From: Ilumatobacter coccineus YM16-304
GTDB taxonomy: Bacteria; Actinomycetota; Acidimicrobiia; Acidimicrobiales; Ilumatobacteraceae
Assembly: GCF_000348785.1 (NCBI RefSeq)
Contig: NC_020520.1
Location: 4,712,001-4,776,000, forward strand
Direction: 5' to 3'
Length of the DNA: 64,000 bases
The position numbers and the translations under genes were made by a program. Of the stretch, positions 4,881-9,708 are shown in pieces. The stretch's first letter is position 1. Every line of letters starts with the position of its first letter. The notes under the pieces were generated by a model. That model saw only the letters and a program-made list of their open reading frames with translations. It did no database searches and had not been told where the DNA came from.

Positions 4881-5510
4881 TTGGAGTTCGAGACGGTCGC
4901 GCTCAACCTCGCCTACCTGACGTACGTCGTCGCCAGCCTCATGCCCGGCGGGCTGAAACTGCGCGTCGCATTGATCATCCAGAGCCTGATGTTCATCACG
5001 TGGGCGATCATCAGCGGCACCCCGACCACCATCGTCTGGAACATCCTGTTCTCGTGCGCCAACATCTGGCGGGCGGTCCGCATCGTGCGACGCAACTCGG
5101 TTGCGCTCTCCACCGAGGAGGAGCACATCCGTCGCGAGTTGTTCCCGTCGCTCAGCCGGCGCGACTTCCTCCTGCTGTGGTCGATCGGACGGACCGACTC
5201 CGCGCCGGTGGGCGAACAGTTCTGCGCCGAAGGCGTCGAGATGAAACACCTCGCGCTGCTCATCGACGGCAACGTGCACGTCGAGGCAACCGACGGCGTG
5301 AGCATCGAGCGGCATGCACCGACGTTCATCGGCGAGATGAGCTTCTTCTCCCACGACCCGGCGAGCGCCGACGTCGTCGCGTCGACCCCCGTCCGCTTCC
5401 ACCGCTGGGATCAAGACGACCTCCGCAACATGAGCAAGCTCAACCAGGAGTGCTCGACCGCGTTGCAGATCGCCCTCGGCCGCGACGTCACGATGAAACT
5501 GCGCGTCTGA
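4881..5510 (+). CDS. Membrane protein with a Popeye-like / cyclic-nucleotide-binding-like C-terminal domain
   Basis: This 209-residue protein starts with TTG, directed by a strong GCGAGGAGGCGGAG ribosome-binding sequence just upstream. Residues 1-70 contain two or three hydrophobic segments (LAYLTYVVASLMPGG; VALIIQSLMFITWAII; TTIVWNILFSCANIW). Residues 80-209 resemble a cyclic-nucleotide-binding beta-roll with FIGEMSFF followed by DPASADVVAS. In classical cAMP-binding cassettes an Arg sits where this protein has PASAD, so the phosphate-binding Arg appears to be missing. Membrane helices followed by a CNB-like fold are the layout of Popeye-domain proteins. The role is unknown. It is transcribed divergently from azlCD. 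Confidence 0.7.
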   Translation: MEFETVALNLAYLTYVVASLMPGGLKLRVALIIQSLMFITWAIISGTPTTIVWNILFSCANIWRAVRIVRRNSVALSTEEEHIRRELFPSLSRRDFLLLWSIGRTDSAPVGEQFCAEGVEMKHLALLIDGNVHVEATDGVSIERHAPTFIGEMSFFSHDPASADVVASTPVRFHRWDQDDLRNMSKLNQECSTALQIALGRDVTMKLRV

Positions 5511-5610
5511 CCGGTTCACCACCCGCAGCCCGACCTGCGGAATATCGCCGGGCGTGGAAGGTTGTACTGCTGTTCGGCGCTCTGTGCGTCGCTTCACACG
5601 GAGGACTCCC

Positions 5611-6423
5611 ATGACCCGCATCGCCGCAACCGACATCACCGACCAGCAGCCGACCCGGCGCCGCCCGGCGCCCCTGCTCGCCGCCGTGAGCGTCGTCGCG
5701 CTCGTCGTCGCAGCGTGCGGTGGCGATTCGTCGTCGAGCGGAGCGAGCGACGAGGCGACCGGGCCGACCATTCCGACCGACCCCGCGTCGATCATCGCCG
5801 CCTCCTCCACGGCGATGGGCGACGTGCAGAGCGTCGCCTTCGAACTCGCTCGTGACGGGGCGCCCGTCTACATCGACAGCTTCGAATCGATCTCGCTCAA
5901 CACGGCGACCGGCCAGTTCACCGTGCCGCGCTCGGCGCGAGCCCTCCTCGAAGTGGAGGTGAACGGCTCCCTCACGACCGAACTCGGTGCGATCGCGCTC
6001 GACGACGAGATCTGGCTCTCCAACCCGGTCACCGGCGACTTCGAGACCCTCCCGCCCGGCTACGACATCGACCCGTCGCTCTTCTTCGACCCGGAGAACG
6101 GGTGGAAGCCGCTCATGGCCAACCTCACCGACGTGTCGTTCGTCGGCACCGAGCAGATCGACGGCAACGACCGCTACCACATCACCGGCACGGCACCCGC
6201 CGAGCAGGTGGCGATCATCACCGCCCGACTGGTACGCAACCAGGACGTCGACATCGACTTCTGGATCCAACCGGTGAGCGGGCTCGTCACCCGCGCCGAG
6301 TTCTCGACCGCCACACCCGGCGCCGACGACACCGACGCGATCGACTGGACCCTGCGACTCTTCGACTACGGCGCCGACTTCGACATCTCCCCGCCGGCCA
6401 ACCTCACGGACGGTTCGTCATGA
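5611..6423 (+). CDS. LprG/LppX-family lipoprotein
   Basis: This is a 270-residue exported lipoprotein. The ATG at 5611 follows a clear GGAGG (5600-5604), so the longer upstream frame is rejected. A signal sequence ends in a lipobox VALVVAAC. An acidic/Ser linker follows, and then a domain typical of the LppX_LprAFG family: SAMxDVQSVAFEL, two antiparallel sheets, and the late VDIDFWIQPVSGLVTRAEFS segment. In mycobacteria LprG binds triacylated lipids and works with the MFS exporter P55 (Rv1410c). Here the stop codon overlaps the start of an MFS gene (ATGA), reproducing the lprG-p55 arrangement. Lipid trafficking is therefore likely by homology and context. Confidence 0.82.
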   Translation: MTRIAATDITDQQPTRRRPAPLLAAVSVVALVVAACGGDSSSSGASDEATGPTIPTDPASIIAASSTAMGDVQSVAFELARDGAPVYIDSFESISLNTATGQFTVPRSARALLEVEVNGSLTTELGAIALDDEIWLSNPVTGDFETLPPGYDIDPSLFFDPENGWKPLMANLTDVSFVGTEQIDGNDRYHITGTAPAEQVAIITARLVRNQDVDIDFWIQPVSGLVTRAEFSTATPGADDTDAIDWTLRLFDYGADFDISPPANLTDGSS

Positions 6424-8936
6424 CGATCGACGCGATCAGCACCGACCGACCAGCATCGTCACCTTCGCCCCGGGCGATCCTGTGGGCGGTCGGCTTCAGC
6501 GTGTTCGTCGCGGCCGACGACCTCACCGTGGTGTCGACGATGCTGCGGCCGATCATCGGCGACCTCGGGCTCGTCCTCCCCGACGGCCTCGACGACGCTG
6601 CCTGGATCGTCAACGCCTACCTCATCGCGTTCATCGCGATCATGCCGATCGCCGGTCGGCTCAGCGACGTCATCGGTCGCCGCCGCACCTTCATGCTGGC
6701 GTACGCGATCTTCACCGTCGGCACGATCTGGATTCCGCTCGCCGACTCCCTCGGACCGCTCCTGATCGGACGCGTGCTCACGGCGATCGGCGGCGGTGCC
6801 ATGGTGCCCGTCGCGCTCGCCGTCGTCGGTGACGTCTACCCCGCCGAGAAGCGGGCCAGGGCGCTCGGCACGCTCGGCGCGATCGAAACGCTCGGCTGGG
6901 TCTGGGGTCCGCTGTACGGCGCCATGCTCGTCCGCTTCCTGTCGTGGAGATGGCAGTTCTGGTTGAACGTGCCGCTCGCCATCGGCGGAGCGATCGCCGT
7001 GTGGTGGGCGCTCGCCGACCACGACCGTTCGACCGCTCGCGTGCAGCGTGTCGACTGGCTCGGCGCCGGACTGCTCACCACCGCGCTCGTCTCGCTCAAC
7101 CTCGCCCTGCTCGGCAGCGCCGAAGTGCAGAGCGTCCAGGGCCTCGACGAGCTCACCGGCAACAACTCCACCGACTTCCGCCTCCTGTATCCGCTCGCCC
7201 TCGCGGCGACCGTCGCGTTCGTGTGGCAGCAACGTCGCCTCCGCGCGGCGGGCCGCGATCAACTCATCGACACTCGACTGTTCCGCGGTCGCAACGTGCG
7301 CGTTGCGCTGATCGTCAACTTCCTCGTCGGTGCCGGACTCGTCATCGCCATGGTCGACGTGCCGTTGTTCATCAACGCGGTCGAGATCGACCTCGAACGC
7401 TCGGCGGTCGTCGCCGGGTGGATCCTCTCCGCGCTCACCGCGGCGATGGCGATCGCCTCGTACGTCGGCGGCCGCGTCACCGAACGCACCTGGTACGGCC
7501 CGCCGATCGTGCTCGGCCTCGTGGCCTCCACCCTCGCGTACGGGCTGATGGGCTTCACGTGGGGCGGCGACACGCCGTACCCGCTGCTCGCCGCGCAACT
7601 CGCGCTGCTCGGCGCCGGCATCGGCCTCACCGTGGCACCCACCACCTCGGCCGTCGTCGACCACGCCGATCCCGACGCCCGAGGCGCGGCCGCTGCCGTG
7701 GTGATGGTGGTACGGATGATCGGCCTCAGCGTCGGCCTCTCGGCCCTCACCGCATGGGGACTCGCCCGATTCAACGCGCTGCGCGGCGACCTCGACCTGC
7801 CACCGCTCACCGACCCGGAGTTTCCCGCAGCGCTCGCCGAGGCCACCGAGAACCTCACCGCCCAGTCGATCGCCGACACGTTCCTCGCCAGCGCCGCCGC
7901 CCTCGGCGTCGGCCTCGTCCTCTGCCTCACCCTGCTCCGACGCCGCGCCGCCACGGCGGCGGATCCCACCGACGCCGAACCCACCAACCGTCTCACCAAC
8001 CGTGCCCCCGACCCCGAACAACCCGAAGAGGAGGTCGCCATGACCACCGACGACAACGCCACCAACCCCACCCTCGACAACACGCCCGAAGAGAGCGACG
8101 TGAACGGAGTCGACGACGACCCGATCACCGCCGAGAACCCTCGCATCGACGCGACGCCGCCGATCGGCGACACCGACGAGATGCCCGTCATCGCCATGGC
8201 CGCGTCAGACGGCGCCGTCCCGATCGACGAGCCGATCGACGACGAGCCTCGGCTCAGCAGCGCCGGCTGGATCCACCGCAACCTCGTCGCCGTCATGAGC
8301 GTGTTCGCACTCGCGCTACTCGGCTCGCTCGTCTTGCTGGCGGTGATGTTCACCAAAGCCAACGCCACACAGAACGAACTCGACGACACGCGCGCCGAAC
8401 TCGCCACCACCCGCGACGACATGGAACGCGTCGAGGCCGGCGCAGCGATCTTCGCGTCGCAGGTCAACGGCTTCGTCGAGCAGGTCAACGAACTCGGCCC
8501 GTCGATCGACGACGGGCTCGACCAGGCCGTCACCGGGCTGGAGGACTTCGGGTCGTCGACCATCGACTTCACCGTCAACATCGACGAGAACATCTCGATC
8601 CAGCAGGACTTCGCGATCGACAGGACGATCGCCGTGCCGATCAGCACCTCCATCCCGATCGACGAGGAGTTCGACACGCGCATCACGATCAACGGACCGT
8701 TCGGCGTCGACATCCCCCTCGACATCACCGTGCCGATCGACCTCGACGTGCCGATCGACCTCACCGTCGACATCCCGATCAACGAGACGATCCCGATCGA
8801 CGTCGACGTCCCCGTCCAACTCGACGTGCCGATCTCGGTCGACGTGAAGGGCACCGAACTCGAAGCGCTCACCGCGTCGCTCATCGAAGGGCTCCGCGCC
8901 TTCCAGGCCGGTCTCGGCGGTTTGACCGGCAACTGA
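6420..8936 (+). CDS. MFS (P55/DHA2-like) exporter fused in frame to a single-pass Ile/Asp-repeat protein
   Basis: The 838-codon frame starts at the ATG overlapping the lipoprotein stop. Residues 1-540 form a 14-helix DHA2-type MFS transporter: an early membrane-embedded DD pair (AADDLTVVSTML), GRLSDVIGRRR between helices 2 and 3, and the motif-C-like GWVWGPLYGAML. The partner lipoprotein suggests lipid or drug export, as for mycobacterial P55. No stop separates this from residues 541-838, which hold an acidic stretch, one membrane helix (about 618-645), a short coiled coil (about 650-690) and a repeat of alternating hydrophobic and Asp/Glu residues (IPID, VPIDL, DVPI) at about 715-815. A strong internal ribosome-binding site before codon 541 means the second half may also, or only, be made as a separate protein. 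Confidence 0.75.
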   Translation: MTIDAISTDRPASSPSPRAILWAVGFSVFVAADDLTVVSTMLRPIIGDLGLVLPDGLDDAAWIVNAYLIAFIAIMPIAGRLSDVIGRRRTFMLAYAIFTVGTIWIPLADSLGPLLIGRVLTAIGGGAMVPVALAVVGDVYPAEKRARALGTLGAIETLGWVWGPLYGAMLVRFLSWRWQFWLNVPLAIGGAIAVWWALADHDRSTARVQRVDWLGAGLLTTALVSLNLALLGSAEVQSVQGLDELTGNNSTDFRLLYPLALAATVAFVWQQRRLRAAGRDQLIDTRLFRGRNVRVALIVNFLVGAGLVIAMVDVPLFINAVEIDLERSAVVAGWILSALTAAMAIASYVGGRVTERTWYGPPIVLGLVASTLAYGLMGFTWGGDTPYPLLAAQLALLGAGIGLTVAPTTSAVVDHADPDARGAAAAVVMVVRMIGLSVGLSALTAWGLARFNALRGDLDLPPLTDPEFPAALAEATENLTAQSIADTFLASAAALGVGLVLCLTLLRRRAATAADPTDAEPTNRLTNRAPDPEQPEEEVAMTTDDNATNPTLDNTPEESDVNGVDDDPITAENPRIDATPPIGDTDEMPVIAMAASDGAVPIDEPIDDEPRLSSAGWIHRNLVAVMSVFALALLGSLVLLAVMFTKANATQNELDDTRAELATTRDDMERVEAGAAIFASQVNGFVEQVNELGPSIDDGLDQAVTGLEDFGSSTIDFTVNIDENISIQQDFAIDRTIAVPISTSIPIDEEFDTRITINGPFGVDIPLDITVPIDLDVPIDLTVDIPINETIPIDVDVPVQLDVPISVDVKGTELEALTASLIEGLRAFQAGLGGLTGN
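8026..8042 (+). promoter_or_regulatory. Internal ribosome-binding site and ATG inside the MFS-repeat protein frame
   Basis: AAGAGGAGG (8026-8034) lies five bases before an in-frame ATG at 8040. It is one of the best Shine-Dalgarno matches in the window, placed exactly where MFS homology ends and a new acidic N-terminus (MTTDDNATNP) begins. This suggests a second protein of 298 residues initiated inside the frame, with the MFS stop codon lost or absent. Confidence 0.6.
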
Positions 8937-8961
8937 CCCGACCTCGGTAGGTTCCACGAAC

Positions 8962-9708
8962 GTGAGCGACGAGCAACCAAAGCGAGTGCGGGGCATCGGC
9001 ACCCTCACCGACTCCGAGTCGGGCGCCCGCGTGGTGGCCCGACCGGCGAGCACGTTCAAGGTCCGCCGTCGCGGGCTCTCGCCGAAACGACAAGCGGAGT
9101 TCGACGAGTGGATCGAGAAGTGGAGCGTGCCGATCGACGGCCCGCTGCTCGACTGGAACGACACGTTCGCCAACGCCGACGGCCGTGATCCCGAGCGTGG
9201 TGTCGTGCTCGACATCGGGTTCGGTCACGGCGAGTCGACGATCCAGATGGCACGCGCCCAGCCCGACTACGACGTGCTCGGCGTCGAAGTGCACGATCCC
9301 GGCGTGGTCACCGTCCTCGACGCGATCGAGAACGACCCGCTCCCGCACGTGCGCGTCGTGTACGGCGACGTCATCCAGTTCCTCCATCGCGTCGGCCCCG
9401 AGTCGCTGCGCATCGTCCGCGTGTTCTTCCCCGATCCGTGGAAGAAGCCGCGCCAGCACCACCGCCGGCTCGTCCGCCACGACATGGTCACGGCGCTCAC
9501 CGACCGCCTCGAGATCGGTGGAGAACTCCAACTCGCGACCGACATCGTCGACTACGCCGAGTTGATGCACGAGGTGTGCGAGGCCGAACCGCGGCTCACC
9601 GGCGGCATCGTCGAGCGACCCGACGAGCGGCCGCTCACCCGCTTCGAACAGCGGGGCCTCGACGCCGGTCGCCCCATCACCGACCTCCGCTACCGCCGCA
9701 CCAGCTGA
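8962..9708 (+). CDS. trmB: tRNA (guanine-N7-)-methyltransferase TrmB
   Basis: This 248-residue cytoplasmic enzyme uses SAM to methylate N7 of G46 in the tRNA variable loop. The SAM site is VVLDIGFGHGES (about 82-92), followed by the family-specific FFPDPWKKPRQHHRRLV, where the Asp and Lys residues are catalytic and bind tRNA. The C-terminal TRFEQRG is also typical. A basic N-terminal extension (KVRRRGLSPKRQAE) matches the TrmB pattern. The start is a GTG at 8962. It lies 25 bases after the MFS-repeat gene and may share its transcript. Confidence 0.93.
   Translation: MSDEQPKRVRGIGTLTDSESGARVVARPASTFKVRRRGLSPKRQAEFDEWIEKWSVPIDGPLLDWNDTFANADGRDPERGVVLDIGFGHGESTIQMARAQPDYDVLGVEVHDPGVVTVLDAIENDPLPHVRVVYGDVIQFLHRVGPESLRIVRVFFPDPWKKPRQHHRRLVRHDMVTALTDRLEIGGELQLATDIVDYAELMHEVCEAEPRLTGGIVERPDERPLTRFEQRGLDAGRPITDLRYRRTS

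Follow-up and report, generated by a model that had tools for sequence, protein, structure and literature searches.

The closest described relative of the system reported here is the mycobacterial LprG-Rv1410 pair (P27-P55; MHAS2168), in which an LppX/LprG lipoprotein gene is followed by a gene for a DHA2 transporter of the major facilitator superfamily (MFS). As far as the excerpted text of PMC10576003 goes, LprG is named as the partner of the Rv1410-type transporter, transmembrane helices 11 and 12 (TM11 and TM12) of Rv1410 homologues are extended into the periplasm, and it is left unclear whether LprG passes triacylglyceride to further periplasmic proteins. EmrA, an adaptor of DHA2 MFS pumps, has a coiled coil of 127 Å (excerpt of PMC4158417), and in SctQ/HrcQ and Cas11b one frame gives the whole protein and, from an internal start, a C-terminal piece (excerpts of PMC4295842, PMC8553256, and PMC11899642). 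We analyzed a stretch of 64,000 nucleotides from Ilumatobacter coccineus YM16-304 (hereafter the window; positions 4,712,001-4,776,000 of a single-contig genome of 4,830,181 bases), in which a plus-strand frame at 6420-8936 encodes 838 residues comprising an MFS domain, a disordered linker, and a further part, hereafter the tail. An earlier note on this DNA, made from the sequence alone, had pointed to a repeat protein in this frame. The tail is almost certainly a real conserved family with a near-fixed repeat length. We tentatively propose that, in Acidimicrobiia, it serves an LprG/Rv1410-like lipid exporter as a third, accessory component, an account that, taken whole and with its lipid path included, we consider plausible but short of probable.

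The relation between the MFS part and the tail was compared in 25 distinct loci in which both are visible (L036, a copy of L018, was left out). The two parts lie in one open frame in 19 loci and in separate genes in the other six; in genome G027, the MFS stop and the tail start overlap as GTGA. A start codon is present at the junction in all of them, ATG in 19 of 19 fused loci and three ATG and three GTG in the six separate ones. The earlier note had described the protein as fused to or hidden inside the MFS frame; this is not an either/or, because most loci are fused with the start site kept and the remainder are separate. The mean Shine-Dalgarno (SD) duplex energy was −8.1 for the 19 fused junctions and −7.4 for the six separate ones, against −2.9 for control in-frame codons (p = 4e-11), the junction starts having been chosen by eye before this test. 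When 17 fused junctions (without L031 and L045) were compared with 234 other in-frame ATGs, the values were −8.3 and −2.5, respectively (p = 3e-10). In the window, the SD-like sequence is GAGGAGG; when 479 in-frame codons of the locus were taken as controls, none had an equally good one. On this sequence evidence, the internal ATG at 8040 is likely to be used as a start, and the frame would probably give both an MFS-tail fusion and a free tail. The extent of 8026-8936 proposed earlier holds for the tail frame (8040-8936), with the difference that a start at 8026 takes in the GAGGAGG. In a tree of 29 tails (the state of L026 unassigned; L031 and L045 absent), each of the two states, fused and separate, is clustered, and the state has switched at least twice. 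In L031 (6001-6546), the tail frame runs into its own inverted copy at the contig end, probably an assembly fold-back.

The tail shows the sequence features that the earlier note had listed. It starts with an acidic segment (20 Asp/Glu versus 2 Lys/Arg within the first 76 residues), and a single hydrophobic window from residue 82 (Kyte-Doolittle 2.7) corresponds to the one membrane helix. The alternation described there as hydrophobic and acidic covers 95 residues (174-268) and is hydrophobic and polar; its score of 76 was reached by none of 20,000 shuffles (mean 10.6, maximum 36), and the DNA of this region, hereafter the ribbon, has a periodicity of 18 nt. Across 29 rows of the alignment, Val, Ile, Leu, Met, Phe, Tyr, or Trp occupies 73% of odd and 8% of even positions in the first predicted strand, and 92% and 5%, respectively, in the second. 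In the window protein, the strands contain nine prolines, all of them on even (polar-face) positions. The hydrophobic face carries conserved polar residues, namely, E183, R195, T203, E209, T213, and E249; R195 is present in 26 and E249 in 27 of the 28 rows with a letter there, and T213 is present in all 29. The longest conserved block of the tail lies in the stalk and is RVEAGAALFASQ-like.

AlphaFold2, run with the 29-tail alignment, predicted a helix at tail residues 77-171, strands at 174-218 and 224-268, and a helix at 273-295, with the first 75 residues disordered (mean predicted local distance difference test score (pLDDT) 79; predicted template modeling score 0.36). The pLDDT was 86-97 in the stalk and 79-95 in the strand blocks, and a full-length model of MFS and tail has the same elements in the same places at lower confidence. 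The prediction for frame residues 541-838 that the earlier note had called for thus returned a stalk helix, a long hairpin, and a C-terminal helix. The helical part of the suggested coiled coil stood, the prediction being a single unbroken helix of which the membrane span forms part, and the suggested long regular beta structure appears as a hairpin of 45-residue strands, with which the placement of indels agrees. The strand pairing was read from the symmetric limits (174 + 268 = 218 + 224), not from coordinates. Within the ribbon, the 29 rows have no insertions, and deletions occur only at the turn or as a 20 + 20 pair. Eight rows, seven of them close relatives on the tree, are without one residue exactly at the turn (223), and L026 (I. 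nonamiensis) lacks 20 residues before the turn and 20 after it, so that the strands stay equal; the exact place of the latter deletion is ambiguous owing to the repeat, and the contig is a draft. L019 is the only row with Glu at 195 and the only one with Gln at 249, positions that would be close across the predicted ribbon. Because of the indel placement and this co-change, the hairpin has support outside the model, and it is very likely that region 174-268 is predicted correctly as a hairpin of two 45-residue strands. L026 (66-782) would be a natural in-frame short-ribbon variant, unless the draft contig collapsed the repeat.

The net charge before the membrane helix equals or exceeds that after it in 27 of 29 rows, of which four, the window's own tail included, are ties; the balance is reversed in L037 and L041. 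Because the 14-helix MFS before the tail should end inside, and because of this charge balance, the membrane helix probably has its N terminus inside and its C terminus outside. The outer-face location that had been suggested for the repeat is accordingly likely on the charge balance, and the linker (fusion residues 514-614) is expected to be cytoplasmic.

Of the 10 members of the genus that were examined, I. coccineus itself among them, six have the tail, as do 16 of 296 class genomes sampled and 18 loci of a contig-collection scan (L014-L031); these samples overlap, G001, G002, G003, G007, G009, and G282 recurring among L014-L031. The relatives that could be named are from Ilumatobacter and other Acidimicrobiia, including I. 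nonamiensis. Searches of Pfam and NCBIfam with the tail at E ≤ 1 gave only scattered below-cut-off matches, and Pfam across the 29 homologues gave only TarH, in two of them (best E 0.004). PHROGs had no match for three tail proteins, and the best match in a PDB sequence search (E 0.014) lay over the membrane and stalk part, the ribbon alone having none at E ≤ 1. Membership of the tail in a known family was rejected for want of a convincing match in these four collections, in line with the earlier note, which had recognized none. We also rejected drift of a low-complexity repeat, since the 29 rows have no repeat insertions and their indels fall at the turn (eight rows) or in a pair (one row); a poorly conserved repeat with no predicted fold, the other outcome considered at the outset, is not what the 29-row conservation and the AlphaFold2 fold show. 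The whole-tail omega was 0.29 and 0.44 in two pairs, but the synonymous distance varies between segments, so that these values are not main evidence. Synonymous differences in two genus pairs are lower in the ribbon (window 8559-8843; pS 0.34-0.35) than in the stalk or the N-terminal part (0.44-0.65), perhaps through the codon bias of the repeat.

Searches over a wider range gave no convincing relatives. Plasmids had no tblastn match to the tail, and of 116 pattern matches in viral contigs none was confirmed, the phage collection not having been searched. In 396 genomes of the phylum, the full tail profile gave two matches, both already known members of the class, and a ribbon-only profile gave five, two known and three weak (3e-5 to 0.004), none convincing. 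Weak ribbon matches were discarded in G569 (an antisense DG-repeat frame) and G019 (an Ala/Lys/Val-Pro repeat), as were two further weak matches, in G010 (E 0.007) and G023 (E 5e-4; an E/V repeat). In G469, from another family of the phylum, L096 has a weak ribbon-only match (E 0.004) that is not significant over 396 genomes; the sequence beside it is presumably a PE-like domain. Other phyla were covered by the contig-collection scan only, via two stalk patterns. In the literature searched, judged by title or start of abstract and with subscription papers outside its scope, we found no description of the tail protein or of an LprG-Rv1410-like exporter with an added component.

The LprG-like neighbor and lipid-type MFS recognized in the earlier note were borne out by the matches to PF07161 and 8pnl. 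The latter, a putative triacylglyceride transporter, is the closest solved relative of the MFS part (E 3.7e-49), followed by EfpA (E 7.5e-23); we take 8pnl to be the MHAS2168 structure. The MFS model has 14 long helices, with TM11 and TM12 predicted to be extended (residues 418-455 and 468-513; 38 and 46 residues) and a loop between them. D34, R118, and R432 are each present in 22 of 22 MFS rows. D34/R118 match the N-domain Asp-Arg pair D35-R118 of MHAS2168, and at the place of its ion lock E157-R426, all 22 rows have R432, with Thr in the Glu column (T157, 22 of 22) and Glu (15 rows) or Asp (seven rows) at 156. By sequence, the exporter comes closest to the triacylglyceride transporter of the Rv1410 type from mycobacteria, triacylglyceride export itself being putative. 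The neutral-lipid synthase WS/DGAT was found in 15 of 16 tail genomes, with four matches at E ≤ 1e-10 in the window genome, and its genes are reported in all Ilumatobacter genomes analyzed (excerpt of PMC10351704). It was set aside as evidence of the substrate because 194 of the 296 class genomes carry one, and it is compatible with the proposed substrate only.

A search for homologues beside LprG-like genes, likewise suggested earlier, found free-standing tails and, in most loci, the order LprG-MFS-tail. This order occurs on one strand in 17 of the 18 contig-collection loci, and the 18th begins at a contig end. In the class sample, 16 of 296 genomes have the tail, 43 have PF07161, and 12 have both (Fisher p = 2e-8, relatedness ignored; the PF07161 match of G103 is weak, 4e-5). 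G293 and G295 carry the tail on one contig and the LprG-MFS pair on another, and the genus members without this MFS at E ≤ 1e-80 (G004, G006, and G008) are also without the tail. Altogether, we consider a functional link of the tail to the exporter quite likely. In L050-L052, all from one genus, a free-standing tail has a divergent pirin gene on one side and, on the other, a DUF6982 gene followed by an ABC exporter (L050 134-4290; neighbors assigned by Pfam in L050 and by eye in L051 and L052). The free-standing tail gene of L053 (1799-3051) overlaps at its end, by 4 nt, with the start of a CAP-domain protein gene, which suggests that translation of this tail is coupled to a different partner.

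The proposed mechanism would run as follows. From a membrane helix with its N terminus inside, the predicted stalk helix (about 10 nm for 67 residues, by residue-count arithmetic on predicted elements) would lift off the membrane, on the outside, an antiparallel ribbon of two strands (45 residues each, about 15 nm) that is hydrophobic on one face and polar on the other, followed by the C-terminal helix. The MFS-tail fusion and the free tail from ATG 8040 would be two products of one frame and could assemble via their stalks, so that only some stalks bear an exporter. In the least certain step, the hydrophobic ribbon face would act after the MFS, either together with LprG or following it, and would shield neutral lipid, such as triacylglyceride, or pass it on through the aqueous space of the cell wall. 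That this face touches lipid is possible, although we hold it with some doubt, and it is unlikely, in the strongest form of the proposal, that fused and free amphipathic ribbons form a hydrophobic track moving neutral lipid from the proton-driven exporter and LprG across the wall. If true, these bacteria would possess a bridge-type lipid transport system based on a two-stranded hairpin, and the question of which component accepts lipid from LprG and carries it further would be answered for them.

Several observations speak against this account. Some single-locus SD sites are weak, the share of control codons as good being 21% in L014, 18% in L039, and 14% in L015, and the choice of junction starts by eye favors them somewhat in the SD comparison. 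In the full-length model, the pLDDT is mostly 58-63 in the ribbon and 43-88 in the stalk. The ion-lock carboxylate is one column off, with T157 opposite the arginine and E/D156 beside it, and WS/DGAT is common class-wide. Five of the 16 tail genomes (G099, G103, G168, G197, and G270) lack this MFS at E ≤ 1e-50, so that the tail can exist without the exporter, and four of these five are also without PF07161. Conversely, LprG-MFS pairs without an adjacent tail were found in L072, L074-L076, L078, L079, and L081-L083 (L072 and L083 being more divergent pairs; L071 and L073, at contig ends, L077, with an N run after the MFS, and L080 were left out of the count), and the class genome search found no tail elsewhere in these nine genomes; the pair therefore does not require the tail. 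G005, a genus member with a 69% complete genome, shows a partial match to the MFS but none to the tail.

A hydrophobic-faced ribbon must pack on something, be it another copy, the stalk, LprG, or lipid, and the same elements could accordingly make a structural tether, in which stalk and ribbon oligomerize, the hydrophobic faces form a closed core, and the assembly positions the exporter in the envelope without ever contacting lipid. A two-stranded ribbon of this kind would need a partner surface, for which its own copies are the simplest candidates; the conserved polar residues E183, R195, T203, E209, T213, and E249 suit a packed core over a lipid slide; and the tail is found without the exporter too. 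The tether leaves unexplained, however, why most loci pair the tail with LprG and an MFS of the lipid type, and we regard it as a genuine possibility of which we are far from confident. The lipid path was ranked first because the tail travels with a lipid-type exporter and lipoprotein, with the packed tether close behind.

The tail could also be an envelope protein that works on its own and has its gene in the same operon; the fusion would then be incidental read-through of a lost stop and the free form from ATG 8040 the working product. The strong start site retained in fused loci would fit this, as would the separate genes in six of the 25 loci and, in other class families, the stand-alone copies next to unrelated genes, such as those for pirin or a CAP-domain protein. 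We nevertheless consider it improbable, given that 19 of 25 loci are in frame, that the two states cluster on the tree with at least two switches, that a useless fusion could easily gain a stop codon, and that in G293 and G295 the tail and LprG-MFS occur together although their contigs differ. A ring of hairpins making a large beta barrel, as in pore stems or the SpoIIIAG or FliF rings, was suggested by many weak Foldseek and VIA matches to hairpins that build barrels, rings, and tubes. The best Foldseek match was at E 0.16 on the PDB and 0.014 on a viral library, and VIA matches, which cover mostly tail residues 151-298, had Z of 2 to 6, none significant, the best (Z 5.7) being a different kind of protein; these are too weak to name a fold, and an absent match does not prove a new one. 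By textbook hairpin geometry, moreover, nine strand prolines all on even positions would keep further strands from pairing sideways with the ribbon edges, and such a barrel seems very improbable. Our preferred reading remains the accessory component of the lipid exporter.

The coordinates of the locus are listed in the table below. The stop of the lipoprotein gene and the MFS start ATG at 6420 overlap by 4 nt. Directly 5′ of the lipoprotein gene, the window encodes a Popeye-domain protein (4881-5510, plus strand; POPDC1-3 E 2e-9, cNMP_binding 1.5e-9, Imp-YgjV 2.7e-4). Long antisense frames cross the tail (7259-8980, minus strand, 573 amino acids; 8316-9215, minus strand, 299 amino acids) and seem to be a side effect of codons that are rich in GC and in palindromes (GTCGAC, CGATCG).

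Table. Features of the exporter and tail locus, in window positions
Feature	Position	Strand	Basis
LppX_LprAFG-type lipoprotein (LprG-like)	5554..6423	+	Pfam PF07161 E 1.1e-24; PDB relative LprG 3mh8 E 1.3e-5
DHA2-type MFS exporter part	6420..7982	+	Pfam MFS_1 E 1.2e-45 (residues 26-439); 8pnl E 3.7e-49; AlphaFold2 model
Acidic disordered linker, fusion residues 514-614	7959..8261	+	pLDDT <50 over 522-616, no predicted structure
SD-like GAGGAGG before internal start	8028..8034	+	Duplex energy −12.5
Internal ATG, proposed free-tail start	8040..8042	+	Start codon kept at junction across loci
Tail protein, 298 amino acids, undescribed family (frame residues 541-838)	8040..8936	+	Homologues, alignment
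Single membrane helix, tail residues about 82-104	8283..8351	+	Hydropathy; lies within predicted helix 77-171
Helical stalk, tail residues about 105-171, with RVEAGAALFASQ-like block	8352..8552	+	Model; conservation
Predicted beta strand 1 of long hairpin, tail 174-218	8559..8693	+	Models; alternation
Predicted hairpin turn GPFGV, sole site of single-residue indels	8694..8708	+	Model; alignment
Predicted beta strand 2 of long hairpin, tail 224-268	8709..8843	+	Models; alternation
Predicted C-terminal helix, tail 273-295	8856..8924	+	AlphaFold2 tail model
Putative methyltransferase gene, 3′ of fusion frame	8962-9708		PF02390

The tail is a candidate onward lipid protein tied to the LprG-MFS exporter pair, often by direct fusion, and its hosts are environmental bacteria that can be freely studied. 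A hairpin with 45 residues per strand and strict hydrophobic and polar faces is an unusual, testable shape, for which the natural 20 + 20-residue shortening in one species offers a ready-made length variant, and the fused-but-restartable gene would be a clean case of a fusion and a free subunit from one frame. Compared with LprG-Rv1410, the locus has the same gene order, the extended TM11 and TM12 in the model, and the conserved D34/R118 and R432. Unlike that pair, the locus includes the stalk-and-ribbon tail as a third part, either fused to the MFS or translated directly after it. In 8pnl there is no room for such a tail, as its chain is 543 residues long and is matched up to 511. In outline, the tail also resembles the EmrA adaptors: each crosses the membrane once, bears a long helical stalk, and accompanies a 14-helix MFS pump. 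EmrA-type adaptors have a helical hairpin and lipoyl and beta-barrel domains, whereas the tail model has one helix, one two-stranded hairpin, and one helix, and none of those domains; no EmrA/HlyD adaptor family was among the Pfam matches of the tail at E ≤ 1 or of the 29 homologues at 0.01. The resemblance to EmrA adaptors is thus one of role and placement, not of sequence or predicted fold. As in SctQ/HrcQ and Cas11b, two products are proposed for one frame through an internal start, here a putative one, but the C-terminal piece would in this case be a membrane-anchored, outside-facing part of a transporter.

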